A stretch of 64,000 nucleotides of DNA. It comes from Tragulus kanchil. Lineage: Eukaryota; Chordata; Mammalia; Artiodactyla; Tragulidae. Positions 5,745 to 64,000 of the stretch are shown here, in pieces. The position numbers and the translations under genes were made by a program. The notes under the pieces were generated by a model that was not told the DNA's origin, ran no database searches, and saw only the letters and a list, made by a program, of their open reading frames with translations. Every line of letters begins with the position of its first letter. Within the stretch, counting starts at the first letter, position 1. The DNA lies in the NCBI GenBank assembly GCA_022376925.1, contig JAIOJX010000027.1:17377471-17441470 (forward strand), given 5' to 3'.

Positions 5745-7889
5745 CGAAGGCAAAACAGGTTAGTGAGCAGGTTTTCTGTGAATTCGCTTCTGTGGAGTAA
5801 ATGCCACAGAGACTCGCAGCACTGCAGGTTGCGGATGTCGCTCCACTCACGTGCCGTCTCTGACTGTCTCTCTCAGGTGTCGGAGTTTGTGCTTTTCTAT
5901 AAAAATCATCAGAAAAGCAGAGATTCCTTCTCTTCTATGGATTTCATCTGTTCCTCATTTCAACTGTGTAAATATTGTTTGCAGGTCCTGGGTTTCTGGT
6001 CCCTAGCAGTGGAGACCAAATCGATTACCCATGAGCCACTCAGTTTGCAATCATTTAAAATTCCAGACTCTCTCTGGCGCAGATGACGAGCCAAGGAAAC
6101 TCGTCATGGCACTCTGCCTCTGTTTATTTCTTGCCTTCCATTTCTCTTTTGATTGTCCCTTCCCGCCCCTCCTGGTTTATGCCTTTTCCTTCTGCCTTCC
6201 CCTGCACTCCCTAGGGCAGCTCTCAGCCTCTTCCGTGCGATGTCTCATGTTTGGTCACCAAATGAAAGCGTCGGATCCTCCCAAGAAGCCTTTGTGTTCA
6301 CAGGGTCAGCATAGCCAGGTCAGCTGGAGGCAGGTGTCCCCGTGTCAGGGGAGGAGAGGAGCCCAGGGGCAGTGATGGTCCCTAGAGCCGAGTGTGGCTG
6401 ACCCCCCACGTGGTGACGTCCCTCCCTCAGTGCCCCGCACGGCTCTGAGGGCAGCCTGGTCTGTCTTTAATCCACTCCAGCCACAGAGCGAATGTTTTAA
6501 ATAAAACCTCTGCCTGAGTGAGTCACAGCTCTGCTGGCTTTTGTACGGCATCCCGAGGATGATGGTTTACTCTGCCTGAGTAACAAAATTAATACAAGAG
6601 AAACATTTTTGTTATGTGGTATCTTGAAAAAACATAAAAAGAAGAGAGACATATGGGCCTGAGCAGTGAGATTTGGATGAAAAGGTTCCACTTGACACAA
6701 GGGAAATAATGAGAAAAACGGAATAAATCTTCTTGGCAGAGAAGGGTACAAAGAGTCAACAGGAAGAAGTAAAAAAAAACCCCACACTCTCACTAGCCAG
6801 CCACGGTGAAATTAAGGGTTTGGGGCGAAGGCAAAACAGGTTAGTGAGCAGGTTTTCTGTGAATTCGCTTCTGTGGAGTAAATGCCACAGAGACTCGCAG
6901 CACTGCAGGTTGCGGATGTCGCTCCACTCACGTGCCGCTCTGACTGTCTCTCTCAGGTGTCGGAGTTTGTGCTTTTCTATAAAAATCATCAGAAAAGCAG
7001 AGATTCCTTCTCTTCTATGGATTTCATCTGTTCCTCATTTCAACTGTGTAAATATTGTTTGCAGGTCCTGGGTTTCTGGTCCCTAGCAGTGGAGACCAAA
7101 TCGATTACCCATGAGCCACTCAGTTTGCAATCATTTAAAATTCCAGACTCTCTCTGGCGCAGATGACGAGCCAAGGAAACTCGTCATGGCACTCTGCCTC
7201 TGTTTATTTCTTGCCTTCCATTTCTCTTTTGATTGTCCCTTCCCGCCCCTCCTGGTTTATGCCTTTTCCTTCTGCCTTCCCCTGCACTCCCTAGGGCAGC
7301 TCTCAGCCTCTTCCGTGCGATGTCTCATGTTTGGTCACCAAATGAAAGCGTCGGATCCTCCCAAGAAGCCTTTGTGTTCACAGGGTCAGCATAGCCAGGT
7401 CAGCTGGAGGCAGGTGTCCCCGTGTCAGGGGAGGGAGAGGAGACCAGGGGCAGTGATGGTCACTCGAGCCGAGTGTGGCTGACCCACCACGTGGTGACGT
7501 CCCTCACTCAGTGCCCCGCACGGCTCTGAGGGCAGCCTGGTCTGTCTTTAATCCACTCCAGCCACAGAGCGAATGTTTTAAATAAAACCTCTGCCTGAGT
7601 GAGTCACAGCTCTGCTGGCTTTTGTACGGCATCCCGAGGATGATGGTTTACTCTGCCTGAGTAACAAAATTAATACAAGAGAAACATTTTTGTTATGTGG
7701 TATCTTGAAAAAACATAAAAAGAAGAGAGACATATGGGCCTGAGCAGTGAGATTTGGATGAAAAGGTTCCACTTGACACAAGGGAAATAATGAGAAAAAC
7801 GGAATAAATCTTCTTGGCAGAGAAGGGTACAAAGAGTCAACAGAAAGAAGTAAAAAAAAACCCCACACTCTCACTAGCCAGCCACGGTG
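5745..7889. repeat. D1: ~1081-bp tandem duplication
   Basis: Copy A is 5745-6808 and copy B is 6826-7889, offset 1080-1081. Copies are near-identical. Differences are 1-base indels (GCCGTCTCTG versus GCCGCTCTG; GGGGAGG versus GGGGAGGG) plus a cluster of C/A changes at 6362-6425. The 6809-6825 scar resembles the 5723-5743 flank of copy A in shortened form. The unit holds no recognised gene or young SINE. Confidence 0.95.
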
Positions 7890-8324
7890 CCTCTAATAAG
7901 GTCCCTTATATAATTCAAGGTCACCGTCTGTAAGAAGTGACCTTTATCATGTCGATTTTGAAAGAGATGTTTTGTATTCCAGCCCTTTTCCGTGTCTGGG
8001 GTGCGCGTGTGTTTGGGGGAGCCTGTTGCAGTAGCGGAACACGTTGATGTCTTTGCAGCTCCTTTGGGAGCTGGTTTAGAGATAAACGTGGGCCGTGGTG
8101 GTTGCCCTCCTCTGGCTTGGAGAGAATTCCTATGCTGTTTTGTCTGACCCGAAACGGCCAGCTTCTGTAATATCAACTTGGTTTTGATGCATTCTGAAGC
8201 CCAAACCAAATGTTCTCTGTCCAGTGGACGGGGTGTACCTTGATGACACCCGGGGGTGTTCGGGGTGCCTGAGTGACCACTCCCAGGTGGACACGTGGTC
8301 ACGTGTGGGGTAGTCTGCTGGGCT

Positions 8325-8530
8325 GTGCTCAGTCACTCAGGCGTGTCCGACTGTTTGTGATCTCGTAGTGCTGGAGCCCGCCAGGCTCCTCTGTCCACGG
8401 GATGCTCCAGGCAGGAACACCGGAGCGGGCTGCCATGTCCTTCTCCAGGGGATCTTCCTGACCCAGGGGTCAGACTGGGGTCTCCTGCGTTGCCGGCGGA
8501 CTCCTCACCACTGAGCGACCAGGGAAGCCC
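8325..8530 (-). mobile_element. Bov-tA SINE (D2 copy A)
   Basis: Complete reverse Bov-tA ending GACCAGGGAAGCCC. CpG-rich variant with GGAACACCGGAGCGGGCTGC in place of the usual ACTGGAGTGGG word. Confidence 0.92.
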
Positions 8531-9475
8531 TGTAGTTTGTAGAGCGGTTTTATTTTTCCTTGAACTGACCCTGATTTCCACAATGAAAGGGAGCTTCTTT
8601 TCACCCCAGTCTTGCCTTCATCCAAGGAAGACACAACTGATTTAAAAAAGCAGAGATGTCTCGGCCCAGCTTGGCGCATTGTTCAATGAGAGATGCCGAA
8701 GATGAGAGGGCAGGTGCCATGAAGGTCACAGAGAGTGGCGAAGCTCAGCCTTTGGGAGAGGACAGATTCCGAGTGTGTCCCATCCCTGCAGCCACTGGTC
8801 GGCTCTCGCTCTGCCAATTAAATTGTCATGGTCCCTGTGGGCAGGTGGCTTCCCCTGGGAGGTCCATCTCCCGCATCTCAGAGGCCCACCCCCTACAGCA
8901 CTCCACACGGTCAGGGGACGGAGAGCACGCTGCGGGTGTTCACCCCCCCAAACCCCGACGCATCTAACGATTGCTGAGAGCCTCTTTCAAAGGCCCTTTT
9001 TCCTTCCCTTTTCCACAGAAACTGATTGTGAGCCACGGTGCCTCTAATAAGGTCCCTTATATAATTCAAGGTCACCGTCTGTAAGAAGTGACCTTTATCA
9101 TGTCGATTTTGAAAGAGATGTTTTGTATTCCAGCCCTTTTCCGTGTCTGGGGTGCGCGTGTGTTTGGGGGAGCCTGTTGCAGTAGCGGAACACGTTGATG
9201 TCTTTGCAGCTCCTTTGGGAGCTGGTTTAGAGATAAACGTGGGCCGTGGTGGTTGCCCTCCTCTGGCTTGGAGAGAATTCCTATGCTGTTTTGTCTGACC
9301 CGAAACGGCCAGCTTCTGTAATATCAACTTGGTTTTGATGCATTCTGAAGCCCAAACCAAATGTTCTCTGTCCAGTGGACGGGGTGTACCTTGATGACAC
9401 CCGGGGGTGTTCGGGGTGCCTGAGTGACCACTCCCAGGTGGACACGTGGTCACGTGTGGGGTAGTCTGCTGGGCT
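8531..9475. other. Unassigned sequence across the D2 junction
   Basis: Single-copy type sequence with no recognised gene. It includes the degraded junction at 8934-9031 and the first 440 bp of D2 copy B. Confidence 0.4.
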
Positions 9476-9681
9476 GTGCTCAGTCACTCAGGCGTGTCCG
9501 ACTGTTTGTGATCTCGTAGTGCTGGAGCCCGCCAGGCTCCTCTGTCCACGGGATGCTCCAGGCAGGAACACCGGAGCGGGCTGCCATGTCCTTCTCCAGG
9601 GGATCTTCCTGACCCAGGGGTCAGACTGGGGTCTCCTGCGTTGCCGGCGGACTCCTCACCACTGAGCGACCAGGGAAGCCC
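9476..9681 (-). mobile_element. Bov-tA SINE (D2 copy B)
   Basis: The same insertion as 8325-8530, including its private CpG-rich variants, shifted by 1151 bp. It is therefore one SINE counted twice. Confidence 0.92.
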
Positions 9682-10518
9682 TGTAGTTTGTAGAGCGGTT
9701 TTATTTTTCCTTGAACTGACCCTGATTTCCACAATGAAAGGGAGCTTCTTTTCACCCCAGTCTTGCCTTCATCCAAGGAAGACACAACTGATTTAAAAAA
9801 GCAGAGATGTCTCGGCCCAGCTTGGCGCATTGTTCAATGAGAGATGCCGAAGATGAGAGGGCAGGTGCCATGAAGGTCACAGAGAGTGGCGAAGCTCAGC
9901 CTTTGGGAGAGGACAGATTCCGAGTGTGTCCCATCCCTGCAGCCACTGGTCGGCTCTCGCTCTGCCAATTAAATTGTCATGGTCCCTGTGGGCAGGTGGC
10001 TTCCCCTGGGAGGTCCATCTCCCGCATCTCAGAGGCCCACCCCCTACAGCACTCCACACGGTCAGGGGACGGAGAGCACGTCTGCGGGGTGTTCACACCC
10101 CTGGCCGGTCATTGACGCCCACAAAGATCCCACTGACGTTCTTTTTATTCTAACGTACTTGCTGAGAGCCTCTTTCAAAGGCCCTCTTCTCTTCCTTCTG
10201 CCGGCTGTGATGTTCACACAGAAACTGATTGTGTTTCCATACAGTAGCATCGAAAAAGTGTAAGTTTAAAAACAGTGTCAGTCAAAATAGCACCATGTTT
10301 AAGTTGCACATAGTGATTTCTAACTCTGATTTGTCCATTTAGTGTTTTGGAGACTGTTTATGAGTCTGTAACGACCCAAGCTTGATAAGCAACTGAATGG
10401 GCCTGGCTGAAGCACGTGTGGAAAGGAGCTTTAACCAAACCTGTGGGACTCAGTTAGGACTGGGCTTGTGAACACGGTGGTCAGTTTCACCAGTCGTTTC
10501 TCACAGAAGCTGTACCGC

Positions 10519-10748
10519 AGAGTTGACCTTGCACAGCACACGTTTGAGCCGTCCATGGGTTCACTTAGGCTTGCCGTTTGTCCAGTAGCAAACGCATGGT
10601 CAGCAATCGGCTGAACCTGCAGCCGTGGTATCCTGGACATGGAGCAGCGAGGCGTGGACAGAGGGCTGACTGGTGACGGTGGATTATACTTGGACTTTTA
10701 ACTGAGTGGAGACGGTTGGCACCCCGAGCTTCCGTGAAAATCAAGTGT
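10519..10748. mobile_element. MER2/Tigger2-like DNA transposon relic
   Basis: Starts AGTTGACCTTGCACAGCAC, contains GTTTGAGCCGTCCATGGGTTC and GATTATACTTGGACTTTTAAC, and ends in an A-rich partial inverse of the start. That order matches short non-autonomous elements whose terminal repeat reads CAGTTGACCCTTGAACAAC. Family assignment is from memory and the ends are eroded. Confidence 0.5.
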
Positions 10749-11787
10749 CTGTGTATTTTTGAAGGTAAATTTAAAGTCAGACACTTAACGTCTAGGAAGG
10801 CAGCCCAGTGCTCTAGGCAAGAGTTGGATTCATGACCAGAGTAGAGGTTTCAGGCTGTCTTCCTTGGAGCCCAAAGCTTTTGTGGCACTTGCTAGGGTCA
10901 AGGGTGTGTCTGTGGGTTTGTGTCTGTGTGTGTGCCTGTGTGTGTGTGTCTCTGTGTGTGTTTGTGTTGGGGACTGGAAAGCCTGTCTGCCCTCCCTTCT
11001 CCCCAACCATCTCGTTCACAGCAGTTTCGTTTTATTTGTATTTGTAAGATTTTTGTCCAAAAAAGTCTTATGGCTAAGAATAATTATGAGAACTGCTGAT
11101 CAATTAAACAAAGAGAAGCCCAGCACGGCTGGCAGGGATGCCCAGACAGGCAGCAGGTAGACAGCCGGGGCCCGCTCCAGAAGCCGGCGCTGGACGGAGC
11201 GTGGGGGATTTTTCCATTACCTTTCAAGGGTAATTTGGGCTTTGAGGACGGGAACCTTAACTGCTGACGGACGAAAGGGCTGCTCGGGAGTTCAGCTGTT
11301 GATAGGAAAATTACAGGGAACGAGCCGGCAACGTCATTGAGGCAAGAACACATTTTGTGTTCAGTTGGGCTGTAGAGGTCTGAACCGTAACCGTCGGACA
11401 TCTGAGCCAGGAAGCTCTGGCCTGGGAACAGCTGTGGTCCCGGGGTCCGGAGCGGGGGCTGCCACATCTGCGGTGTTGGGGGGACCCGCTCCGTGCCCTT
11501 CGGGAGGTGGGTGCTGGGACACTCGTGCACATCACCTGGGCAGTTTGTGTAAAACACAGGCTGTGTGCTCCTCCGGCAGCTCGCCGAGTCAGGACTTCAG
11601 GCTGAGACCCAGGAGCTTGCTCTTTTTAACAGAACGTGCATCCTGGCGAATCTGATACCCTCTAACGTGTCCGGACGCCTGCCAGGTTTCTCCGAATCTC
11701 TCGTCACTAGGAGTCGCGCCCAGTCGTGTTAGGCATCCAGCTTTTCAGAGCTGTTCCCCACAGATGCCGGGTTGAGATGCGGCCCGG
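10749..11787. other. Unassigned single-copy sequence
   Basis: Holds the TG-rich microsatellite at 10905-10970 and a GC-rich block at about 11360-11540. No splice-bounded open frame could be supported. Confidence 0.4.
10905..10970 (+). repeat. Imperfect (TG)n microsatellite
   Basis: TG dinucleotides broken by GGGTT, CTG and CTC interruptions. Frames through it give the low-complexity V/C peptides expected of such a tract. Confidence 0.85.
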
Positions 11788-12205
11788 TTTTTTTTTTTTT
11801 TCATTGTAGGGGAGCTGATTTATAATATTGTGTTAGTTTTAGGTATACAGTAGAGTGATTCCATTATACATATGTATTTCAGATTATTTTCTATTCTACA
11901 TTATTATAAAATGATTGAATGTAGTTCCCTGTGACACACAGTAAGCCCGTTTAGATGCAGTGGCTCGTGCCTGGCAGTCCCAGCCTGACCTCCCTCGCTG
12001 CTTTCCCCTCTGGCGGCCACGTTTGTTTTCGGTGTCTGTGAGGCTGTTTCTGTTTTGCACTATATAGACTGATTTGTATTTTTTTTTTAGATTTTACATA
12101 GACGTGATGTCATATAATATTTATCTTTGACTTATTCAGATACTCTCTGGGTCCATCTATGCTACTAAAACTGGCACTGTTTTTTTTTTTTTTTTCTTTA
12201 TTTCG
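11788..12205 (-). mobile_element. L1 3' UTR fragment
   Basis: Poly-T at 11788-11801 is the L1 poly-A tail in reverse. Then come GAGCTGATTTATAATATTGTG, GTATACAGTAGAGTGATTCC, GTAGTTCCCTGTG and a TATAGACTGATTTGTATT block, in the order of ruminant L1 3' UTR. Confidence 0.75.
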
Positions 12206-12684
12206 ATGGTTTGTTCTTATCATAGATGATTGCAGTGGGGGGATGTTGAGGTGAGAGGTACGTTTGTGGAATTCCTGGCTTGTGTTATAGTGTTACAGGC
12301 AACTCCCAAGGAACATTTAGAAAGTCATTTTCATATTTCCTTCCCCTCAAGCATGGTTCTGGTGGTTTGATAAGGGGGTCTGTTTGTCATTATTTGCATG
12401 AATATGTCATATGGTTGCACATTGAATCAGTTGGTATCAGATGCCACTGGCTTCCACGTTTGCTTAGAAAACCACTTATTAACCCCAGCGGATGCTTCAT
12501 TTATGCGTAGCTCATAGATGTTAAATGTTGTTTGCCTTTGAATCCTTTGGTCTCAGAAGACAAAGTAGAAATAGCAAGATTATAGCAGCGTTAAGTTTAG
12601 CATCAGATTCTTCCATGAGGAAAAGAAGCGGATTGTGTCTCCTGAGAGCATTTTTTTCTTACTGTCTATGGAGTGAACTTATTT
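12206..12684. other. Unassigned A/T-rich sequence
   Basis: Nothing recognised. Follows a poly-T run and may be older L1-derived sequence. Confidence 0.35.
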
Positions 12685-12850
12685 TTTTCAAATTGATTTA
12701 TTTTTTAACTTTCTGTTTTATATTGGAGTATATCAAAGTATTTTATATTGGAGTTGATGTACATTGGTGTATTAGGTTTAGCTGTGATTCAATTACACGT
12801 ATGCCTGTGTCTACTCTTTGTATGAGTTCAGGTTTTTAGCTTCCACATGT
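12685..12850 (-). mobile_element. L1 3'-end fragment
   Basis: TTTTATATTGGAGTATATCAA and GATGTACATTGGTGTATTAGG followed by AGCTGTGATTCAATTACACG is the L1 3' UTR signature, reverse strand. The TATTGGAGT word is locally doubled. Confidence 0.6.
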
Positions 12851-13750
12851 AAGGTCATGAGTCAGACTCAAAAAGATGAGAACAGCAGAATTGTAATTCA
12901 GAACAAGCAAACTGTAGCCAACTACAGTGAGTTTATCGAGGGTGTGGGGTGGGTTGTATTTACAGGCAGAGAATGTAGCACGGAGACACTTCAGTAAAGA
13001 ATATTAAAATCATCAAGAAGCAGAGGCCGTCCCTGACAAGCTTCTGAGCAGTCCGTCAGTCCAGGGGCAGGAGCAACGCTCAGTGCAGCCCTCTTGGTGA
13101 GACCAGGCCCTGGGTCACCTCTCATCCCTGCCTCTGGCAAAGCCTCCCAAGGCTGATATGAGACCACCATTGGTCAGCACTCCATCATCCGGGGGTCTTA
13201 GTCCGTACATGCTGCCTTCCTGGGTCTCCACTTCATTCCCGCTGGCTCTGTCCAGACTGCATTTCTTTCACGCTTGTCTGTCTTCTTGCAAGAAGGACCA
13301 CATGCAGAACAACCTGTGCCATCATCTGCATGGCGTCACCCCTAGGGAGGAAGTCCATGTTGCAGCTCCCGGGAGGGCCCGAGAACAAGCATGAGAGCTG
13401 GGTGGAGGATTCCTGAAAACGCCCCTCACCTCAGAGTATAGCAGGTGCGAGCAGAAAGCGTGGCTGGAAGGTGGCACAGGACCATGCGATTTCCCCGAGC
13501 CTTGAACACACACCAGGCCTGAGCCTTGCCCGTACACCTCTCAGCAGGAACGTGGCGGCCACTGCTGCTAGAGAGGACTGAGAGCGTGATGGGGATCTGG
13601 ACTGTCACTGGAAGCCCTGGGAGCTCTTTGGATGGCGGCGAGCAGCCAGTAAGGAGCCATGAGTGAGCCCTAACACAGTCTGAGGATTGTGTGTGACAGT
13701 GTTCAGGGGCCAGAAGAAAGCCAGGTCTTAGTCTGAGGCCTTGAGAGAAT
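12851..13750. other. Unassigned single-copy sequence
   Basis: No repeat or gene recognised. Moderately GC-rich in 13040-13740. Confidence 0.35.
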
Positions 13751-13989
13751 GGGCTTCCCTGGTGGCTCAGGGGTGAAGCACTCACCTGCCAATGCAGGAG
13801 ACTCGGGTTGGATCCCTGGGTCAGGAAAATCCCCTGGAGAAGGGAATGGCAACCCACTCCGGTACTCTTGCCTGGAGAATCCCATGGACAGAGGAGCCTG
13901 GCAGGCTACAGTCCGTGGGGTTGCAAAGATGGGGGGGCAGGCTACAGTCCATGGGGTTAGTCAAAGATGACTAACAGCTGAACAACAGC
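13751..13989 (+). mobile_element. Bov-tA SINE with internal 3' duplication
   Basis: Full-length plus-strand Bov-tA from GGGCTTCCCTGGTGGCTCAG. Near its 3' end the word GGCAGGCTACAGTCC-ATGGGGTT occurs twice (about 13899 and 13936), separated by a G7 run. The element therefore carries a ~37-bp internal tandem repeat. Confidence 0.92.
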
Positions 13990-14207
13990 ATGAGAGAATA
14001 GAGATGTAAGATTTCTCACTTCTCCTGAATGACTTTCATCCCTGCAAGAAATCTGGCTGGGTTGGAAGGCTAGAAAAACACAGGTGTGAGTGCAGAGTGG
14101 GGATGGGTTCAGGGCAGAGTGTTGTGTTCATAACCTAGGCCATGGTTTCCATCGTAGACAAAGAGGGTCATGTAAATCCTCTTCTGATACAACCAGTGGA
14201 TTTCCAG

Positions 14208-16358
14208 AATTCCCTTATTGTCTCCACTGTAGTGTCTTGGACTTGAGCTTATCTCCTTATGACCCACTACCAAGCTCCAGTGGGCCCTGGTCTTCCTAGG
14301 GAAGATGGGATCCATTTCACGCAGCTGGTCTTCCTCTTGTTTCTTCTGGAGACTGTTGGGAAAGTTTTATTTCTCTTCGACAGAATGTAGGTACTTGACA
14401 TGGTGTCCTTGGCTGCAGAAATTAGATGAGTCTTTATCTCAGTAGAATAGTAGCTTTTCCATAGAAATTATACATTCAAACTATGCACCATGAAACGGAG
14501 TACAGAAGCTGAGAAAATTTAATGAGAAAAGGGTTTATATTCAAGTTTCCTATTATTTCGTAATTTAAAGTGCACACTAATTGAAGAATCTTGGATTTCG
14601 GAATTGGTCTTCTCTAATGAAATTTCAACATTTAGGGTAAAGGGATGGAAGATTAGAAGCAGACTGAAACGGAATGTCACATTGCGCTTCTTTAGTGGAT
14701 AGAAAAGCTTTCATAACTTTGTTTATGATTTTCATTTGAGAATTATTCAAAGTGAAGGCTCCGCCTCGCCCCCATTCTGTTCCGTCTTCATGTCCTTAGT
14801 CCTTTGCAGAAAAGGAGGCCTGGAAGTCTGAGGACGGAGGTGGCAGGCGTGGAGTGGCGGCGAGCAGCCCTCTGGCCGCCCACAGGCGATCCCACAGGCT
14901 TGCGTCTGGCTCCAGGAGAGTGTCTCCCTGGCCGCCGTGCCGCCTCCCCGTCTGGGTCAGGGGGCCCCTCTTCGGGATCCCGAATGTGGGGACGTCTTCA
15001 CGCAGGCCGCCTCGAGAGGGCTCCGACAGACAGTGGTGCTGAAGGCGTGCCAGCGCCATGGCAGGAAGCCCTGTCCCGACGAGGGAGGCGTGGGCGTGTT
15101 CAGGGCACCCCGACTGGCCCTGGCGCACAGAGCGTGGCAGGTGAGACACGGTGCTGACTCCACGGCCTTGGAATTTTTTTGAAGCAAACTTTGTGTTCAA
15201 AGGAAAACCAGGAAAATGAACATGCAGTAGAACAAGAACAAAGGAAAATTCGTACACAAAATGAGGTCATGTAAAGTCATGTAAATCCTTGATCCCGGGG
15301 AAATTCCCTTATTGTCTCCACTGTAGTGTCTTGGACTTGAGCTTATCTCCTTATGACCCACTACCAAGCTCCAGTGGGCCCTGGTCTTCCTAGGGAAGAT
15401 GGGATCCATTTCACGCAGCTGGTCTTCCTCTTGTTTCTTCTGGAGACTGTTGGGAAAGTTTTATTTCTCTTCGACAGAATGTAGGTACTTGACATGGTGT
15501 CCTTGGCTGCAGAAATTAGATGAGTCTTTATCTCAGTAGAATAGTAGCTTTTCCATAGAAATTATACATTCAAACTATGCACCATGAAACGGAGTACAGA
15601 AGCTGAGAAAATTTAATGAGAAAAGGGTTTATATTCAAGTTTCCTATTATTTCGTAATTTAAAGTGCACACTAATTGAAGAATCTTGGATTTCGGAATTG
15701 GTCTTCTCTAATGAAATTTCAACATTTAGGGTAAAGGGATGGAAGATTAGAAGCAGACTGAAACGGAATGTCACATTGCGCTTCTTTAGTGGATAGAAAA
15801 GCTTTCATAACTTTGTTTATGATTTTCATTTGAGAATTATTCAAAGTGAAGGCTCCGCCTCGCCCCCATTCTGTTCCGTCTTCATGTCCTTAGTCCTTTG
15901 CAGAAAAGGAGGCCTGGAAGTCTGAGGACGGAGGTGGCAGGCGTGGAGTGGCGGCGAGCAGCCCTCTGGCCGCCCACAGGCGATCCCACAGGCTTGCGTC
16001 TGGCTCCAGGAGAGTGTCTCCCTGGCCGCCGTGCCGCCTCCCCGTCTGGGTCAGGGGGCCCCTCTTCGGGATCCCGAATGTGGGGACGTCTTCACGCAGG
16101 CCGCCTCGAGAGGGCTCCGACAGACAGTGGTGCTGAAGGCGTGCCAGCGCCATGGCAGGAAGCCCTGTCCCGACGAGGGAGGCGTGGGCGTGTTCAGGGC
16201 ACCCCGACTGGCCCTGGCGCACAGAGCGTGGCAGGTGAGACACGGTGCTGACTCCACGGCCTTGGAATTTTTTTGAAGCAAACTTTGTGTTCAAAGGAAA
16301 ACCAGGAAAATGAACATGCAGTAGAACAAGAACAAAGGAAAATTCGTACACAAAATGA
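14208..16358. repeat. D3: 1094-bp tandem duplication
   Basis: Copy A is 14208-15264 and copy B is 15302-16358, constant offset 1094, with no difference noticed between copies. The 15265-15301 scar is a shortened version of 14165-14207: both contain GTCATGTAAATCCT. The unit contains an A/T-rich half and a CpG-rich half. Confidence 0.96.
14770..15175. other. CpG-rich unassigned segment (duplicated at 15864-16269)
   Basis: Abrupt change from A/T-rich flank to CpG-rich sequence, with several open frames on both strands. A GTGGCAG/GTGAGA donor-like word lies at about 15135. No recognised protein and no acceptor plus coding frame could be tied together. Could be an exon-bearing CpG island relic or a GC-rich repeat. 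Function unknown. Confidence 0.3.
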
Positions 16359-16861
16359 AAGGAGAATGAGTCAAAGAGGTGTGTGTGGGCGTTGATTATT
16401 TTATTCCAGCTTTACAGATGGTTGTTTCATGTCAGTGTCAGGCACGAGGTGAGCTCACGGCGTGGGCCTCCCGCAGGCAGCCTCTCAGCACTCACGCCGT
16501 CCCTCCCTGGAGGCCTCGGCTCGGTCTGCTCACGCAGGCCGCAGTTGACACACGCCCGTCCGGTAGGCAGTGACTAAATGCAGCATGAAGACTTCTTACA
16601 CGTCTGGTTAAAACCCCAATGGAAAAATAGGTAAAGAATACAGCCATTTGGCAAAGGAATGTAGAAATCACTATTGAAGTATGAAAAAAAGTCACTCTGA
16701 CAAAGGATTTTAAATGAAAACAATTTGACAGTAGCACTATTTTTGAACCTCTGGAAGTGGCAAGTAAAAAGAGAAGAGAGTGTGTTCTGGGTTGATAATC
16801 TGTAGCTTTGTAAATTGGTGTAACTTTTTTTTTTTTTTTTAAAGATTTGTTTTCCAGGAGA

Positions 16862-51264: not shown

Positions 51265-51447
51265 CTCAAAGAAAGTAGTGTGATGTTGAAGTAAGCTCTG
51301 AGAGACACTGCACTGTTGGCCTTGAAAGGGAGGAAGGGACCTCATGCCAAGCAGCGTGCACAGCTACAGGAATTGATTAAAAGGCTCCATAATATCCATT
51401 GAACTGAGTCTGCATGGATACCTTTTTTGTTCCAACAATCAATTAGA

Positions 51448-52460: not shown

Positions 52461-52924
52461 AGGGGAGATAACACTTTGCTGACAAATGTACCAAAGCTAT
52501 GGTTTTTCCAGTCATCATGTACGAATGTGAAGACTGGACCATAAAGATAGCTGAGTGCCAGAGAATGGATGTTTTCAACTGTGTTACTAGATAAGACTCT
52601 TGAGAGTTCCCTGGACAGCAAGGAGATCAAACCAGTCAGCCCTAAAGGAAGTCAGCCCTGAATATTCATAGGAAGGACTGGTGCTGAAGCTGAAGCTCCA
52701 ATGCTTTGGCCACCTGATGCGAAGAGACGACTCATTGGAAGAGACCCTGATGCTGGGAAGAATAGAAGGCAGGAAGAGAAGGGGGCGGCAGAGGACGAGA
52801 TGGTTGCACAGCATCCAGTGGATGTGAGTTTGAGCAAACTCCAGGAGATAGTGAAGGACCGGGAAACTTGATGCGCTGCAGTGTGTGGAGTTGCAAAGAG
52901 TCAGACACTACTTAGCAACTGAGC
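52461..52924 (+). mobile_element. BovB LINE 3' end
   Basis: Plus-strand BovB: GCTATGGTTTTTCCAGTCATC, CTCTTGAGAGTTCCCTGGAC, CACCTGATGCGAAGAGACG, terminal GAGTTGCAAAGAGTCAGACAC. The ORF2 C-terminal region is frame-broken. Confidence 0.92.
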
Positions 52925-52929
52925 AGCAA

Positions 52930-53135
52930 GAAATACAATAGATAATTAGTGAGAACCTACTGTTTAGCTCAGGGAACTCTGCTCAGTTCTTTATGGAGAC
53001 CTAAATAGAAGAAAATCCAAAAAAGAGGGGATACATGTAAATATATGACTGATTCACTTTGCTGTACAGCAGAAGCTAACACGACATTGTAAAGCAACTA
53101 TACTCCAATAAAAAAAAATAAAAAATAAATAAAGG
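52930..53135 (+). mobile_element. L1 3' UTR and poly-A end (D17 copy A)
   Basis: AGGGAACTCTGCTCAGTTC, GACTGATTCACTTTGCTGTAC and GTAAAGCAACTATACTCC, then an AATAAA-rich tail, is the terminal 200 bp of artiodactyl L1, plus strand. It abuts the BovB 3' end. Confidence 0.9.
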
Positions 53136-53696
53136 GAAGGCAAGTCTGTTCCTTTTATCCACTTCTTTCTCCGCCTGCAGCCCCCTTTATGAGTTCCCTG
53201 TACAGAGAAAAATGTTCACAGCCAAACAACAAAAGACCCAGGGCAGATCTTTCGCAGCCTGTGAGCCGATCTTGAACTTTCCAGGGGCTTGTACTTCACA
53301 GAAAAAAACACGGAGGCACTTCCTCCGTGCTTCTGCGCCTAGAAAGGGAGGCCGCCTCTCCCAGTGCTGAGTGACACCTCAGGGCTTCTTTCTTTCCATT
53401 CAGAGTGGAAAATATCAACTAAGGTTTCAAAGGAAAGGAAACGTTACGTATTTTCTCATCACATTTGGCATTATCTCTCTCGCAGGCGGTGTCTAATCTT
53501 CGGCACAGTGTTTTTCCACTGTGTACGGAGGAGCTCGCCCCCCCGGCGGCCTCTCACCCTGATGGGGCTCTCTGCAGCCCCAGGTGCGCTGCACCGCGTC
53601 TCTGCTGCTCCCGCCTCCACGGTCCTCCTGACCATCATTTCCCAGGGTTTCTCCAGGAAGCTCACGGTCTCGCCTCTGCAGATACTGAATATAGAT
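53136..53696. other. Unassigned sequence (present three times)
   Basis: No gene recognised. The interval from about 53360 recurs at about 54460 and 55588 because D17 and D18 overlap. A GTGTACGGAGGAGCTCGCC block is GC-rich. Confidence 0.4.
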
Positions 53697-54024
53697 CTCT
53701 TGAGAGTTCCCTGGACAGCAAGGAGATCAAACCAGTCAGCCCTAAAGGAAGTCAGCCCTGAATATTCATAGGAAGGACTGGTGCTGAAGCTGAAGCTCCA
53801 ATGCTTTGGCCACCTGATGCGAAGAGACGACTCATTGGAAGAGACCCTGATGCTGGGAAGAATAGAAGGCAGGAAGAGAAGGGGGCGGCAGAGGACGAGA
53901 TGGTTGCACAGCATCCAGTGGATGTGAGTTTGAGCAAACTCCAGGAGATAGTGAAGGACCGGGAAACTTGATGCGCTGCAGTGTGTGGAGTTGCAAAGAG
54001 TCAGACACTACTTAGCAACTGAGC
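53697..54024 (+). mobile_element. BovB LINE 3' end, truncated at D17 joint
   Basis: The 3' part of 52592-52924 again. The 5' part is missing at the joint. Confidence 0.9.
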
Positions 54025-54029
54025 AGCAA

Positions 54030-54235
54030 GAAATACAATAGATAATTAGTGAGAACCTACTGTTTAGCTCAGGGAACTCTGCTCAGTTCTTTATGGAGAC
54101 CTAAATAGAAGAAAATCCAAAAAAGAGGGGATACATGTAAATATATGACTGATTCACTTTGCTGTACAGCAGAAGCTAACACGACATTGTAAAGCAACTA
54201 TACTCCAATAAAAAAAAATAAAAAATAAATAAAGG
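54030..54235 (+). mobile_element. L1 3' UTR and poly-A end (D17 copy B)
   Basis: Second rendering of 52930-53135. Confidence 0.9.
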
Positions 54236-55096
54236 GAAGGCAAGTCTGTTCCTTTTATCCACTTCTTTCTCCGCCTGCAGCCCCCTTTATGAGTTCCCTG
54301 TACAGAGAAAAATGTTCACAGCCAAACAACAAAAGACCCAGGGCAGATCTTTCGCAGCCTGTGAGCCGATCTTGAACTTTCCAGGGGCTTGTACTTCACA
54401 GAAAAAAACACGGAGGCACTTCCTCCGTGCTTCTGCGCCTAGAAAGGGAGGCCGCCTCTCCCAGTGCTGAGTGACACCTCAGGGCTTCTTTCTTTCCATT
54501 CAGAGTGGAAAATATCAACTAAGGTTTCAAAGGAAAGGAAACGTTACGTATTTTCTCATCACATTTGGCATTATCTCTCTCGCAGGCGGTGTCTAATCTT
54601 CGGCACAGTGTTTTTCCACTGTGTACGGAGGAGCTCGCCCCCCCGGCGGCCTCTCACCCTGATGGGGCTCTCTGCAGCCCCAGGTGCGCTGCACCGCGTC
54701 TCTGCTGCTCCCGCGCGTCTCCACGGTCCTCCTGACCATCATTTCCCAGGGTTTCTCCAGGGAAGCTCACGGTCTCGCCTCTGCAGATACTGAATGGAAC
54801 CCTGATAAAGTTCCTTTGTTAGTGGAAAATTCATTAATGACCTTGATAAAAAAGAACTTTCCAAATCCAGCATCCTGGGAGGACTGAAATGATTCGGGGC
54901 CTGTTGATAGGAACATATAAATGAAAAAGTGCAATAATAGGCCTTTAAAGAAATCCCATTAAATTTTTAAATGAGAAGGAACGCATAGCCCTTCAGTCCT
55001 AGTGCTTGAGGACAAGGACGACACGCCCTTGCCAGCCTCCCTCCCTCCAAGGCCTGGAGAGTTGAGGCAGGAGATGGATCTCTAGCAGTCAAACTG

Positions 55097-55363
55097 TTTT
55101 TTTTTTTTTTTAATAGTTTTATTTATTTTTGGCTGTGCTGGGTCTTGTGTTGCGGGGACTTCTTGTTGCAGTGGCTTCTCTTTTTGTGCAGCAGGGGCTG
55201 GTGGGGATGTTGTGGCCCCTGGGCTCTAGGGCACAGGCTCAATAGTCCTGCAGAACCGGCTTAGTTGCTCCAGGGCGTGTGGGCGCTGCCTGGAGCAGTG
55301 ATGGAATCCAAGTCTTCCGCATTGACAGGTGGATTCTTTACCACTGAGCCACAAGGGAATTCC
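55097..55363 (-). mobile_element. CHR-type SINE, classical form (D18 copy A)
   Basis: Reverse CHR SINE of the classical type: T-run, TTTTGGCTGTGCTGGGTCTTG, GTGGCTTCTCTTTTTGTGC, head GAGCCACAAGGGAATTCC. Distinct from the shorter CHR forms near 300, 5100 and 41131. Confidence 0.92.
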
Positions 55364-56223
55364 TGCATCAGACTTGTAAATCGGTTTATTTTTTGCATAG
55401 ATTGCAAGAGAGATATGTGAAGACAGAATTGCAGGCAGTCTGGTGAAATGTATTAGGGAAACATAGGTCAAACAGACAGGTGAGTAATGTAAACAGAAAA
55501 TCCATGGAGGGAAATGTTGGCAGGGTCTTTCAGATGCTGTTCCGGTTGTGGGATGGGGTGCAGGTGGGGATCCCTGCGAGGAGCCCTCCAGTGCTGAGTG
55601 ACACCTCAGGGCTTCTTTCTTTCCATTCAGAGTGGAAAATATCAACTAAGGTTTCAAAGGAAAGGAAACGTTACGTATTTTCTCATCACATTTGGCATTA
55701 TCTCTCTCGCAGGCGGTGTCTAATCTTCGGCACAGTGTTTTTCCACTGTGTACGGAGGAGCTCGCCCCCCCGGCGGCCTCTCACCCTGATGGGGCTCTCT
55801 GCAGCCCCAGGTGCGCTGCACCGCGTCTCTGCTGCTCCCGCGCGTCTCCACGGTCCTCCTGACCATCATTTCCCAGGGTTTCTCCAGGGAAGCTCACGGT
55901 CTCGCCTCTGCAGATACTGAATGGAACCCTGATAAAGTTCCTTTGTTAGTGGAAAATTCATTAATGACCTTGATAAAAAAGAACTTTCCAAATCCAGCAT
56001 CCTGGGAGGACTGAAATGATTCGGGGCCTGTTGATAGGAACATATAAATGAAAAAGTGCAATAATAGGCCTTTAAAGAAATCCCATTAAATTTTTAAATG
56101 AGAAGGAACGCATAGCCCTTCAGTCCTAGTGCTTGAGGACAAGGACGACACGCCCTTGCCAGCCTCCCTCCCTCCAAGGCCTGGAGAGTTGAGGCAGGAG
56201 ATGGATCTCTAGCAGTCAAACTG

Positions 56224-56490
56224 TTTTTTTTTTTTTTTAATAGTTTTATTTATTTTTGGCTGTGCTGGGTCTTGTGTTGCGGGGACTTCTTGTTGCAGTG
56301 GCTTCTCTTTTTGTGCAGCAGGGGCTGGTGGGGATGTTGTGGCCCCTGGGCTCTAGGGCACAGGCTCAATAGTCCTGCAGAACCGGCTTAGTTGCTCCAG
56401 GGCGTGTGGGCGCTGCCTGGAGCAGTGATGGAATCCAAGTCTTCCGCATTGACAGGTGGATTCTTTACCACTGAGCCACAAGGGAATTCC
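56224..56490 (-). mobile_element. CHR-type SINE, classical form (D18 copy B)
   Basis: Second rendering of 55097-55363. Confidence 0.92.
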
Positions 56491-56730
56491 TGCATCAGAC
56501 TTGTAAATCGGTTTATTTTTTGCATAGATTGCAAGAGAGATATGTGAAGACAGAATTGCAGGCAGTCTGGTGAAATGTATTAGGGAAACATAGGTCAAAC
56601 AGACAGGTGAGTAATGTAAACAGAAAATCCATGGAGGGAAATGTTGGCAGGGTCTTTCAGATGCTGTTCCGGTTGTGGGATGGGGTGCAGGTGGGGCCCA
56701 GAACTTTGGTCGAGGGACGTAAACACTCTT

Positions 56731-57367: not shown

Positions 57368-57599
57368 AGTTTGTCCTCTTTTGCATCTTAGTCCTTGATA
57401 AATAGATTTATCACTCCTGATCCCTAATTTAGATCATGTCATAAGACAATACTCTGAAGGCTGAACCAGAGAGAGTGGTGCGATCTGGCCCCCGGGTGTC
57501 ATGTTGGATGCAATTAGCTCACTGTTCATGTGTATCTGTCTCGAAAACACCATGTACCCATCACAAGGCTTGAGCTCATTCTTTTAATAATGCCTTTTA

Positions 57600-57622
57600 C
57601 CTTGTTTGTTTGTTTGTTTGTT
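57600..57622 (+). repeat. (TTTG)n microsatellite (again at 58682-58704)
   Basis: CTTGTTTGTTTGTTTGTTTG, identical length in both D19 copies. Confidence 0.9.
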
Positions 57623-57710
57623 ATGTCCTTGATGGTGCCTTTGCTTGTTTCTGATGGCTGTCTCATAGGTGGTCACATTCTGAACTCTGTCTTTCTTTGC
57701 AAACTAGGCT

Positions 57711-57912
57711 TTTTTTTTTTTTTTTAATTTATTTGTTGACGTAGACCATTTTTTAAAGTCTTTGTTGAATCTGTTACAATATTACTTCCGTTTTATGTTT
57801 TGGTGTTCTGGCCTAGAGGCATGTGGGATCTTAGCTCCCTGAAAAGGGATCAGACCTGCACCCCCTGCAATGAAAGGTGACGTCTTAGCCACTGGACCAC
57901 CAAGGAGGTCCC
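57711..57912 (-). mobile_element. CHR-type SINE (D19 copy A)
   Basis: Reverse CHR SINE: poly-T, TTGAATCTGTTACAATATTAC, GAGGCATGTGGGATCTTAGC, head GGACCACCAAGGAGGTCCC. Confidence 0.9.
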
Positions 57913-58121
57913 GGCCAGCTAGCTTTTGATGCCCGTCTTCTGCTCGTATCTTCTGACAGCTGGCCTCAGCCCCTCGTCTGTGTTTTCAGCCTTTCCTGTA
58001 TCTGTTCGGCAGTGACTGCTTCTCACACCTCAGCCTCCTGGCCGGAGACTCGCCCGCCCCACCCTCCCTCTGGCTCCAGCCTCTCCAGACGTTGAAGACT
58101 GCCTTTCAGAACTGGAGGAAT

Positions 58122-58393
58122 GGACCCCCCATGGCCCACTGGCTAAGACTCCACCTGACAGAGCAGGGAGCCTGGGTTCAATCCATGGTCCGGGAAGCTC
58201 CTACTGCTGAGGGGCCGCTAAGCCTGTGCACCCCAACTGCTGACTCTGTCTGTGCTCCAGAGCCCAGGCCGCACAGCACGAGAAGCCAGTGCAGCGAGAA
58301 CCCCACCACAATTAGAAAGCAGCCCCCGCTCCCTGCACCTCGAGAAAAGCCCACCCAGCAATAGAGGCCTAACACAGGAAGAATAATAAAAGC
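58122..58393 (+). mobile_element. CHR-type SINE, diverged (D19 copy A)
   Basis: Plus-strand, 210 bp from the previous SINE and opposite in orientation. GGTTCAATCCATGGTCCGGG is the tRNA-like B region. The tail ends AATAATAAAAGCAAG. Confidence 0.82.
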
Positions 58394-58792
58394 AAGGTCC
58401 ATTTTCAAAAAACTGGATGGATCATCTTTTAATGATGATTTTATGATGGAGTTTGTCCTCTTTTGCATCTTAGTCCTTGATAAATAGATTTATCACTCCT
58501 GATCCCTAATTTAGATCATGTCATAAGACAATACTCTGAAGGCTGAACCAGAGAGAGTGGTGCGATCTGGCCCCCGGGTGTCATGTTGGATGCAATTAGC
58601 TCACTGTTCATGTGTATCTGTCTCGAAAACACCATGTACCCATCACAAGGCTTGAGCTCATTCTTTTAATAATGCCTTTTACCTTGTTTGTTTGTTTGTT
58701 TGTTATGTCCTTGATGGTGCCTTTGCTTGTTTCTGATGGCTGTCTCATAGGTGGTCACATTCTGAACTCTGTCTTTCTTTGCAAACTAGGCT

Positions 58793-58994
58793 TTTTTTTT
58801 TTTTTTTAATTTATTTGTTGACGTAGACCATTTTTTAAAGTCTTTGTTGAATCTGTTACAATATTACTTCCGTTTTATGTTTTGGTGTTCTGGCCTAGAG
58901 GCATGTGGGATCTTAGCTCCCTGAAAAGGGATCAGACCTGCACCCCCTGCAATGAAAGGTGACGTCTTAGCCACTGGACCACCAAGGAGGTCCC
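58793..58994 (-). mobile_element. CHR-type SINE (D19 copy B)
   Basis: Second rendering of 57711-57912. Confidence 0.9.
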
Positions 58995-59203
58995 GGCCAG
59001 CTAGCTTTTGATGCCCGTCTTCTGCTCGTATCTTCTGACAGCTGGCCTCAGCCCCTCGTCTGTGTTTTCAGCCTTTCCTGTATCTGTTCGGCAGTGACTG
59101 CTTCTCACACCTCAGCCTCCTGGCCGGAGACTCGCCCGCCCCACCCTCCCTCTGGCTCCAGCCTCTCCAGACGTTGAAGACTGCCTTTCAGAACTGGAGG
59201 AAT

Positions 59204-59475
59204 GGACCCCCCATGGCCCACTGGCTAAGACTCCACCTGACAGAGCAGGGAGCCTGGGTTCAATCCATGGTCCGGGAAGCTCCTACTGCTGAGGGGCCGC
59301 TAAGCCTGTGCACCCCAACTGCTGACTCTGTCTGTGCTCCAGAGCCCAGGCCGCACAGCACGAGAAGCCAGTGCAGCGAGAACCCCACCACAATTAGAAA
59401 GCAGCCCCCGCTCCCTGCACCTCGAGAAAAGCCCACCCAGCAATAGAGGCCTAACACAGGAAGAATAATAAAAGC
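59204..59475 (+). mobile_element. CHR-type SINE, diverged (D19 copy B)
   Basis: Second rendering of 58122-58393. Native right flank. Confidence 0.82.
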
Positions 59476-59534
59476 AAGGTCCATTTTCAAAAAACTGGAT
59501 GGATCATCTTTTAATGATGATTTTATGATGGAGT

Positions 59535-60779
59535 CCAAAGAACAGAAAGAAGAATTTTGAGAAACCACTGAAATGGAGACATTTAAGCAGAAACCTGACA
59601 AAACAGCCCAGTAAGCCCGGGCAAGGTAACTCTCGCTGGGCAGCAGCCGCGAGGTCCTGAGAGTCTGCAGGAGGCGGAGGTGTCTGGGCGCAGCGGCCGG
59701 AGGCAGAGGTGTCACGGCTCCAGGGAGGGAAGTGTTTGGTGACAGTCCTGCACTCGAGCCACCGGGTTCCCTGTGGAAAATCATTGCGCGCAGTTGGGAG
59801 TGACCCCGTCTGGGCAGGCGTGGATGAGCCCCCTGGGGCTGAGCGGGGCGTTGCTGCCGCCAGGAAGCCTCGCCCACACACCTGTTTTCCATCCTCAGCA
59901 CGTGATGACGACGTGGTAACCTTACTCCCTGCTTTGGAAAATATAGGTTGATGTGCAGCAGGGTTTCTTGGCGTCAGATGGGGACCCTGGGAATTCATTT
60001 TAATGCATGTGAATTCTCCAGGGTCCCATGGATTGCAGTGAGTCTAAGGAAATTTCATATTTTCTGAGACTGGGAAATGAGCCCCTGAAAGGGTAGGAGT
60101 TTGATTTTCTGAAATAAAAATCTTTCTCCTAATTTTTCTCCCTCCTTCTATTCTCTACTACCCACAAGTCCACTCCTCGCTGATGAATCTTACTTTGGCT
60201 TTAGTGCAGTGTAGTTTTGCTGTGATTAACCTTCTGTCCACCCGAATCCCCTGGGATAATAATGTCTGTGTGTTTTCTTAAACAACAGGACTACCTTTGT
60301 AAATGACATGCATTTCAAGGAAAAAAATGTCACCTATAGGAAGGTAAAGCACGTTGACAAATGTTTCTTTAAGCAAAGCTAATTGCATGGAATATTTTAT
60401 GGCATTTCCGTGGAAAATGTTACGGGACATCCCTGGAGGATTTCCGGGGAAGTTTTATAGCTGTTTCCTGCTCCATCAGCATCTTGTGGAGCCTGTGGAG
60501 AGCAGGGCTGCCGCTGCTGCGTCTGGGAAGTCGTGGTCGTCAGCTTCTGCGAGACGGTGGAGGGGCGCCCGGCGCAGGCCCGTCTGGGCCCGGATGGGGG
60601 TGGCGTGCGGCCGGCTGTGGCCCTGGAGCCTCAGGACTGGCCCTGTGAGTGCAGGTTGGGGAGAGGTTCTTACTTAGTTGCCTTAGAAACTTCATTACCA
60701 CAGTCCTCAGATGAAAGACTTTCTGAAAATCTCACGTATAGTAGAGAGCAGCTACGGAAGCCCTTCTGATTTGTTGAGA
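59535..60779. other. Unassigned single-copy sequence
   Basis: GC-rich blocks at 59640-59880 and 60490-60660. The second has a CCCTGTGAGTGC donor-like word at about 60643. No acceptor-bounded coding frame or recognisable domain. Confidence 0.4.
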
Positions 60780-61200
60780 AAAAAATTTATTTTAAATTTT
60801 ATTAGAATGCAGTTGACTTAGCGTGCTGTGTTAGTTTCAGCGTGTGGCACAGCGACTCAGTTGCACATGGATCCACTCTTTTCTAGGTTCTTTTCCCACA
60901 CAGCTCATTACAGAGTGCTGAGTAGAGCTTGCTAGTTATCTAGGTCCTTATTAGTTGTCTGGTTTACATAGAGTTGTGTGTATGTGTCAGTCCAGGCTCT
61001 CACTTTCGCCCCCACCCCCATCCCCTGGGAACCAGAGAGTTGTTTTTTACATCCATGACTCTACTTCCGTTTTGTAAATTTGTACATACTTTTTTCTTCA
61101 TTTGTACCTCTTTTTTTGATTCCACACATGTGATAACATATGATATTTGTCTTCCAGTGTCTGATTTACTCTACTCAGAGAGATTTTTTAAGTGTCACTA
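60780..61200 (-). mobile_element. L1 3' UTR fragment
   Basis: Reverse L1: GCAGTTGACTTAGCGTGCTG, GTTAGTTTCAGCGTGTGGC, TTCTTTTCCCACACAGCTC, then CTCACTTTCGCCCCCACCCC and further words in L1 3' UTR order. Long (about 420 bp) compared with the other L1 scraps. Confidence 0.82.
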
Positions 61201-61344
61201 AATACAGGAAAAGTCAGTATCTACTCTTTTGAAGCCGTTACTTTGTGTAAGAAATGCAGACAAGTGTGTGCTCCAGAAAGGAATCTGTCTTGCTAGGTGA
61301 CAGCTTTGTTCACATCTGCCCTCAGTGAGAGCGGCAGCAACTCC

Positions 61345-61498
61345 GCTGGGTCTGACTCCTCGAGGCCCCACGGACTGTGGCCTGCCAGGCTCCCCCATTC
61401 AGGGAATGTTCCTGGCAGAGACGCTTGAGTGGGTTGCCGTTCCCTTCTTGGGGGATCTTCCCTCTCCAGGGATCACACCTGCGTTTCCTGCATTGGAA
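61345..61498 (-). mobile_element. Bov-tA SINE, partial
   Basis: GGGTCTGACTCCTCGAGGCC to TGCGTTTCCTGCATTGG. The far tRNA head and the BovA outer end are missing. Confidence 0.85.
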
Positions 61499-61587
61499 GT
61501 CATAGATGAAATTTCATCGTTTCTCTAGCAGTTAGAACCAGGAGTATGCCATATCAGTTCTTCAGAGGGAAATATCTCAGGGGCGTA

Positions 61588-61738
61588 ACTGAGAATTGTG
61601 TCTATCATCTGTCTGTGTTTCCGTCATCTCTCTATCTGTCAATCATCTATATTTCTGTCATCTATCAATAATCTATCATCTGTCTGTTGATATCTGTCAT
61701 CTATCTAGATATGTTGATAGTTATACAGATGTAGAGAC
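61588..61738 (+). repeat. Degenerate (ATCT)n/(GTCT)n microsatellite
   Basis: Repeated ATCTATC/TGTCATC/TGTCTG words over 150 bp with many interruptions. Confidence 0.85.
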
Positions 61739-63096
61739 AGAGATACATGTCTATGAGATGCTCAGGATCATGGGCATGGATGCGTCATACCATCATGCTG
61801 TGTGTAAATTACAAAATAGTGGAATAAGTGGCGGCCTTCACATCCAAGATCCTCCCTCTTCCGACTGTAAGGGACTCCTCACCGTGGGAAGGAAAACTCA
61901 GCACAGCTGCCTTTCTTCCCAGCCCCACCATCACTGGCGAGCGGCTGCCCTCGTGCTATCCCATGCAGACCGCGCGAGGGCGTGGGTGTGGCTGGGTGGT
62001 CAGGCAGGCCCTGCCACCAGAGCAGAGGGCTGGGTCAGTGGCGAGGGCTCTGTACCCCGCTCTTACGGCTTCCGAGCCAAGTCCCCCGCACCGGCAAGCC
62101 CCACCCTCCCCTGCCTCCTGCCCAGGGCGTGGCCTATGCACCGAGTCTAAAGAGACGACGTCAGACAAAGGGCACCTGCAGAGGAGCGTCCAGCTCTAGT
62201 GTGTCAGAGGTGTCCCACCTGTTGTCCTGTTTCCTAACCAGACTAACCTCTAGCATCTGTGTGTGTGTGTGTGTGCGTATGGTGCCCAGCGTGAATGCCC
62301 TCTGGGTGCACAGCCTGCTCAGATGTGACTGCCGCTGCCCATTGGCTGTCTTCCGCCCGCTGTGCACAGACGGCGGGCCCTCGGCCAGCCCCCAGCTGCT
62401 CGTGGGCATGGACTGCCATCCACCGTCCGCCACCAGTGTCTCTCTTCAAAGGGAGAACAGGAAAATAAACTTTGACTTTTGCAAGCAAAAAAGGCAAAGA
62501 ACTGGTTTGATGATATGAATTTTATTAATTACGCAACATTTTTGGAAAAGAGGTAGAAGTCTGCTCTGTGTTTGGAAACAGCAGAGAATTTAACAGTCCT
62601 CCTCCTGGGTTAAGCAAAATGCGACCCATTGTGGATGGCTGCCACCTCATTCGATTCAGGAGCAGCTTGAAAAATGCCGTAATGGAAAATAATATTAAAA
62701 AAGAGAGTGTCTATGTGGATCACCGGGTCACATTGCCGTGCAGCAGAGATGGCACCGCACTGTCAGTCAGCTCTGCTTCAGTCAGGAGCAGAGTGAAGCG
62801 AACGGGGAAGGAGCACCGAGGCATGCCTGAGGTTCCATCCTGCTTCCCAACTGGTTGCATTTCCTAAACACCTTCCTTATCTTCTGTTGACTGCAAACTA
62901 AACAAGCCTTTAGAGAAACGAAGAATCTTTCTCCCTTTATTTTATGAAGACTTTTTTTTTTTTAAGTATTTTAGGCAGCTATTCAAAATACATACAAGAG
63001 TGAAAACTAAAACTGAAAAGTAAATACATGCAAAAGTAAAAACTAAAACTGATGTTATGGAGGGTTATTGGATAATTTTCTGTGTGTGTTTGTGTG
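61739..63096. other. Unassigned, partly GC-rich sequence
   Basis: GC-rich 61900-62120 and 62280-62450. Several overlapping frames of 90-180 codons on both strands, none with a recognised domain. A (TG)n tract lies at 62258-62276. The part from 62379 is in D20. Confidence 0.4.
62258..62276 (+). repeat. (TG)n microsatellite
   Basis: About nine TG units followed by GCGTATGG. Confidence 0.9.
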
Positions 63097-63298
63097 TGCT
63101 TAGTTGTTCATGTGTGACTCTTTGCAACCCCACGGACTGTAACCCGCCAGGCTCCTCTGTCCATGGGATTTCCCAGGCAAAAATACTGGAGTGGGTTGCC
63201 ATTCCCTTCTCCAGAGGATCTTCCTGACCCAAGGATCAAACCCAGATCTCCTGCAATGCAGGCAGATTCTTTACTGTCTGAGCCACTTGGGAAGCCCT
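63097..63298 (-). mobile_element. Bov-tA SINE
   Basis: Reverse Bov-tA: GTGCTTAGTTGTTCATGTGTG to GAGCCACTTGGGAAGCCCT. Its second rendering, if any, lies beyond the window. Confidence 0.92.
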
Positions 63299-64000
63299 AT
63301 AAACAAGTATGCTAATTGAAGCTGAACTGACCATACTGTGAATATTTCACCATTTTGTAAGTTTTTTAAACAAGAAAACTTAGCTTGGGTACTAATTTAA
63401 TTTCAGGTACCTGTAAAGTCTACTATAATATTTAACTATAAAAAAGTGAGATTTTTGTTGCAAGATTAGGTAATACGCCTCGGCCAGCCCCCAGCTGCTC
63501 GTGGGCATGGGACTGCCATCCACCGTCCGCCACCAGTGTCTCTCTTCAAAGGGAGAACAGGAAAATAAACTTTGACTTTTGCAAGCAAAAAAGGCAAAGA
63601 ACTGGTTTGATGATATGAATTTTATTAATTACGCAACATTTTTGGAAAAGAGGTAGAAGTCTGCTCTGTGTTTGGAAACAGCAGAGAATTTAACAGTCCT
63701 CCTCCTGGGTTAAGCAAAATGCGACCCATTGTGGATGGCTGCCACCTCATTCGATTCAGGAGCAGCTTGAAAAATGCCGTAATGGAAAATAATATTAAAA
63801 AAGAGAGTGTCTATGTGGATCACCGGGTCACATTGCCGTGCAGCAGAGATGGCACCGCACTGTCAGTCAGCTCTGCTTCAGTCAGGAGCAGAGTGAAGCG
63901 AACGGGGAAGGAGCACCGAGGCATGCCTGAGGTTCCATCCTGCTTCCCAACTGGTTGCATTTCCTAAACACCTTCCTTATCTTCTGTTGACTGCAAACTA
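63299..64000. other. Unassigned sequence at right edge
   Basis: A/T-rich to 63477, then D20 copy B. No gene supported. Confidence 0.35.

Follow-up and report, generated by a model that had tools for sequence, protein, structure and literature searches.

How could a single stretch of mammalian DNA come to hold 20 adjacent direct repeats, each of a different sequence and all of almost the same length? The question is raised by a 64,000-nucleotide stretch of the Tragulus kanchil genome (assembly GCA_022376925.1, contig JAIOJX010000027.1, positions 17,377,471 to 17,441,470 of the forward strand; hereafter the window), in which such tandem pairs, numbered D1 to D20, follow one another between window positions 5745 and 64000. 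Judging from the letters of the window, we put the probability at about 95% that the pairs are an assembly artefact, in which overlapping pieces were concatenated with the overlap left unmerged, and the extra third of sequence is probably not real biology.

Comparison of the window with itself recovered all 20 of the near-identical pairs of unrelated sequence reported in the initial annotation, including the first one at 5745, with steps that fall within a few bases of those it listed. Its estimate that duplications account for about a third of the window also holds, the surplus, summed from the 19 overlaps that were measured and the 491 bases of D20 that fall within the window, coming to about 21.6 kb of 64 kb (34%). 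When all 19,696 identical 60-mer pairs were counted, 18,887 lay at offsets of 1066–1163 bp and 809 at 2100–2300 bp (about 2.2 kb), and none of the 19,696 lay at any other offset. The pairs at about 2.2 kb are third copies found where neighbouring duplications run into each other: the duplications of eight pairs of neighbouring joints overlap by 48–432 bp, so that the stretch between them is present in three copies and the pairs form chains of overlapping tiles. Exact 60-mer repeats take in 40,162 bases (63% of the window), and 12 of the 20 pairs hold an identical, ungapped block (100%) of at least 950 bp, set against a longest exact-repeat class of only 14 or 16 bases in 20 third-order Markov controls. 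The letters are A, C, G and T throughout, with no N.

Copy B of D20 ends at the window edge, and this pair is excluded from the comparisons of joints, spacers and copies, which cover the other 19. A transposon, satellite or rolling-circle process copying the units would account for a single step size, but we consider it practically out of the question and rejected a mobile element or satellite as a candidate: the units are unrelated to one another, repeated 60-mers stand in two copies (17,269) or three (809) and never more, inverted 60-mers number zero in the whole window, and the joints share no motif, with no 8-mer present at four or more of the 19 and a maximum sharing of two.

Under the explanation that we favour, each consensus piece would have had about 1.1 kb in common with the following one, and the pieces would have been output end to end with the shared part kept twice. 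The ends of each consensus would be covered by few reads and would hence be left uncorrected and rich in deletions, which would itself favour failure of the merge. At most of the joints the copies differ in just such places. With each joint set at the best-scoring point when each copy is extended into its partner's flank, overlaps average 1112 bp (range 1070–1169) on the left piece and 1115 bp (1066–1203) on the right. Counting from the joint in bins of 20 columns, the copies disagree at 9.5, 9.9 and 8.9% of columns in the first, second and third bin, and at about 3% at 80–140 columns. Within 150 bp of the joint, missing bases are divided between the inner and the outer end in the ratio 149:10 for copy A and 104:29 for copy B, and short gap events near the joints are divided 63:19 (binomial P = 1.1e-6, on an assumption of independence that is only partly true). 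Taken joint by joint, the inner end is the gappier at 13 and the outer at one, with five ties that have no gaps on either side.

Away from the joints the copies are close to identical. In the middles of the 19 pairs, 19 of 15,353 columns differ, 12 of them by substitution, and 11 of the 19 fall in D1 and D9; the copies are therefore not two haplotypes. This led us to reject haplotype duplication, in which both alleles are retained and placed consecutively (heterotype false duplication). Excerpts of one survey report that heterotype exceeded homotype false duplication when three previous assemblies were summed, although not in the hummingbird (PMC9516828), but a fixed step would not be expected of retained alleles and the differences here are concentrated at the joints, which makes them a very improbable source.

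The eight three-copy places provide a referee, as each consists of the end of one piece, the interior of a second and the start of a third. Across 1,638 columns, the copy that differed from the other two was the interior one in a single case, as against 80 for one piece end and 88 for the other, with all three differing in five; with pair 15/16 left out, the counts are 45 and 55 for the piece ends and 0 for the interior, of 1,533 columns. The three copies of pair 6/7 are without any differences, and in the three-copy pairs other than these two, errors sit close to the right end in the first copy (mean relative positions of 0.80–0.90) and close to the left end in the third (0.01–0.14). Real duplication would not account for the interior copy being the clean one.

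Spacers and spacing complete this picture. Nine joints have a spacer of at least 10 bp, and at six of these (joints 2, 3, 4, 12, 14 and 15) the spacer aligns, with gaps, to the joint's own flank and scores higher there than against the same-side flanks of the remaining joints. The smallest distance between neighbouring joints is 1,805 bp, a minimum reached in 0 of 200,000 random placements of 19 joints over the same span in which the first and last joint were kept in place. Genuine tandem duplications arising from a single length-preferring mechanism, for example replication-template switching in a damaged genome, could look normal at the five joints that have no end noise and 1–10 shared bases; against them stand the deletion-rich inner ends and the three-copy comparison, together with spacers that are damaged copies of the flanks, the minimum spacing of 1.8 kb and the lack of a joint motif. 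We know of no parallel for 20 fresh, almost undiverged duplication events of one size within 58 kb, and regard this origin as extremely improbable. That the pairs are false duplications from overlaps not removed had already been proposed in the initial annotation, and the excess of gaps at inner ends, the agreement of third copies with interior sequence, the noisy flank versions in the spacers and the joint spacing all speak for it.

Several observations weigh against unmerged overlaps, however. Disagreement between copies rises again, to 5.3%, at 140–160 columns from the joint. Gap differences are absent within 150 bp of joints 5, 7, 9, 11 and 19, so that those joints alone could be real duplications, and at joint 8 it is the outer copy that lacks more bases than the inner. 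The match between spacer and flank is weak at joint 16, marginal at joint 1 and absent at joint 18; a left flank of another joint also gives good scores with the spacers of joint 4 (42) and joint 15 (59), presumably that of a neighbouring joint that contains the same DNA. Pair 15/16 of the three-copy comparison is poorly aligned, with errors away from the expected ends. Finally, when other repeats of the window served as referee, 20 rows gave 10 in favour of the outer copy, two in favour of the inner (the A side of joint 12 and the B side of joint 16) and eight ties, some of these rows being the same third copies as in the three-copy comparison.

What would give the shared stretches their narrow range of sizes? 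A fixed minimum overlap near 1 kb, the cause originally suggested, fits less well than a shared graph node of fixed length, since a minimum would be expected to produce a long tail of larger sizes, yet the steps span only 1066–1163 bp. The pieces would then be edges of an assembly graph with fixed-length nodes. They are 1.8–6.6 kb long between joints, and the undoubled advance (spacing minus overlap) is 692–1128 bp in 10 of the 18 intervals, 1464–2455 bp in six and 5136–5481 bp in two, classes that correspond roughly to a putative grid with a shared node every 1 kb or so, on which correctly merged nodes leave no trace. At that node distance, the merging of one edge with the next would have failed in about half of cases or more (19 joints in about 31.6 kb of undoubled sequence).

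On balance, we think it fairly likely that the pieces are unmerged edges of a graph of the wtdbg type. Within the same artefact, another step, such as gap filling, contig merging or chopping with a fixed overlap, might have pasted overlapping pieces that are not wtdbg edges, a sub-case that we find doubtful but worth keeping in view. The pieces look shorter than we would assume ordinary long-read contigs to be, and the spacing classes suit a fixed node grid. The evidence within the window speaks of unmerged overlapping pieces and not of the program responsible, and excerpts of the Vertebrate Genomes Project (VGP) work place homotype duplications at contig boundaries, with a hummingbird case that came from a FALCON bug; the lengths given there are near that of a read, however, and not a fixed 1.1 kb (PMC8081667).

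The individual pairs are listed in the table below. Five joints, at about 19552, 24873, 33552, 39276 and 58449, show no gap differences within 150 bp and have 1–10 bp in common at the joint. The longest stretches free of duplication are 1–5744, 10102–14207, 28096–32482 and 59535–62378 (2.8–5.7 kb).

Tandem pairs of the window, with window coordinates of both copies
Pair	Copy A	Copy B	Strand	Step (bp)	Remarks
D1	5745–6808	6826–7889	+	1081	joint at about 6807; 99.2% identity
D2	7880–8948	9031–10101	+	1151	joint at about 9030; noisy 82-bp spacer matching right flank of B
D3	14208–15264	15302–16358	+	1094	37-bp spacer matching left flank of A
D4	16407–17448	17489–18530	+	1082	noisy 40-bp spacer; three-copy tail with D5
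D5	18446–19559	19553–20666	+	1107	clean joint; 100% over 1114 bp
D6	21658–22824	22812–23973	+	1149–1154	
D7	23789–24875	24874–25960	+	1085	clean joint; 100% over 1087 bp
D8	25914–27001	27006–28095	+	1092–1094	
D9	32483–33562	33553–34628	+	1066–1070	joint without end noise
D10	34564–35656	35660–36756	+	1096	
D11	38114–39277	39277–40439	+	1163	joint without end noise
D12	40838–41795	41926–42883	+	1088	noisy 130-bp spacer, its end matching left flank of A
D13	43898–45011	45015–46134	+	1117	third copy agrees with interior
D14	45773–46819	46859–47903	+	1086	noisy 39-bp spacer matching left flank of A; in three-copy comparison
D15	47568–48635	48709–49774	+	1141	noisy 73-bp spacer matching right flank of B
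D16	49841–50967	50987–52112	+	1146	
D17	52585–53690	53683–54795	+	1098–1100	in three-copy comparison
D18	54454–55569	55583–56696	+	1127–1129	in three-copy comparison
D19	57368–58452	58450–59534	+	1082	clean joint; 100% over 1085 bp
D20	from 62379	63478–64000 (window end)	+	1099–1100	B incomplete

Scans of the window with Rfam (gathering scores) and with ARAGORN for transfer RNAs gave no matches, and Pfam at E 0.1 gave none for the 10 scanned of 87 stop-to-stop open reading frames of at least 110 amino acids; these scans thus yield no gene that could act as an outside referee for the copies. Exact-match searches of prokaryote and viral contig collections returned no hit for a 32-base pattern, located at 8957 within the noisy spacer of D2, or for a 26-base pattern taken from the middle of D5, negatives that carry little weight for mammalian DNA. 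The observed-to-expected CpG ratio of 0.44 fits a vertebrate. Dispersed repeats make up about 22% of the window, a figure in which a few tandem pairs missed by the filter are still counted, and the commonest family resembles what we take to be the ruminant short interspersed element (SINE) Bov-tA. In at least 11 of the 19 pairs a dispersed repeat lies entirely within the doubled unit and so stands twice with matching flanks; many of these are presumably ruminant SINEs.

Two further sets of repeats were noted. Stretches of about 310–440 bp at 24306–24720, 47841–48270 and 52492–52922, 68–75% identical and some of them inverted, look to us like the 3' ends of old long interspersed elements. A 335-bp repeat, presumably a CHR-type SINE, occurs in three places (289–625, 5099–5430 and 41127–41466, the last with a duplicate at 42215–42554) with 86–89% mutual identity. 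Excerpts of a giraffe study describe CHR-type SINEs as inactive in ruminants since the RTE invasion (PMC8620236). The likeness seen here may mean that such elements were active later in the present lineage, which is perhaps not pecoran.

Duplications of the kind described, if left in, would resemble tandem duplications of very recent origin, and would inflate genome size as well as the counts of duplicate genes and repeats. The excerpted giraffe study assigned 952 two-copy Bov-tA clusters to recent segmental duplication and noted a high incidence in cattle too, and the doubled repeats with matching flanks in our window are of the pattern that it so assigns (PMC8620236). Even without reads, assemblies can be screened for the signature: a single step of about 1.1 kb, inner ends that are noisy, and joints never less than 1.8 kb apart. 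Tentatively, and as something that we consider unlikely at present, the pattern might be the genome-wide fingerprint of one assembler failure: the published assembly behind this window would then carry tens of thousands of false, near-identical 1.1-kb tandem duplications on a node grid, with inflation by up to a third, and counts of recent segmental duplications or identical two-copy repeats taken from such assemblies would have counted software nodes.

Among known systems, the assemblers wtdbg and wtdbg2 provide the closest candidate for the putative graph. In these programs a node spans four bins (1,024 bp) and may share up to 256 bp with an adjacent node, and consensus is called per edge and then merged. 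This design predicts a shared stretch slightly longer than 1 kb, and all 20 steps lie at 1066–1163 bp; it also predicts tiles of at least 1,792 bp, and the minimum here is 1,805 bp. Three points count against the match: node overlaps of 336, 349 and 432 bp (three of nine, the other six being within the limit) are larger than 256 bp, all steps exceed 1,024 bp, and mass merge failure is absent from the titles and abstract openings among the literature matches listed. The first two mean that a fit to wtdbg2 needs consensus ends that overrun, which could explain both the excess overlaps and the excess length. The excerpted literature does describe bins of 256 bp in wtdbg2 (PMC9902641, PMC11831799) and wtpoa-cns as a separate consensus program (PMC12037172).

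A broader comparison is with false duplications in published assemblies. The heterotype form resembles our pairs in placing two adjacent copies of one locus, but differs from them in its haplotype variants, as the copies here are nearly without differences away from the joints. The homotype form, in the excerpted VGP literature, lies near contig boundaries or stems from sequencing errors and has no haplotype variants (PMC8081667, PMC9516828). The window shares with it near-identical tandem copies at piece boundaries, errors at piece ends (none being seen at five of the 19 joints) and the lack of haplotype differences, with the 12 substitution columns noted above. It departs from it in density, with 20 cases in 58 kb, in the one step of about 1.1 kb, set against a length near that of a read (PMC8081667), and in lying in contiguous, N-free sequence. 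Homotype copies are most often separated by an assembly gap according to the same excerpts (PMC9516828); no such gap lies between the copies here, a gap being a frequent feature of the homotype form and not a defining one. We class the pattern in this window as homotype false duplication, an already known kind, in a dense form of fixed length.

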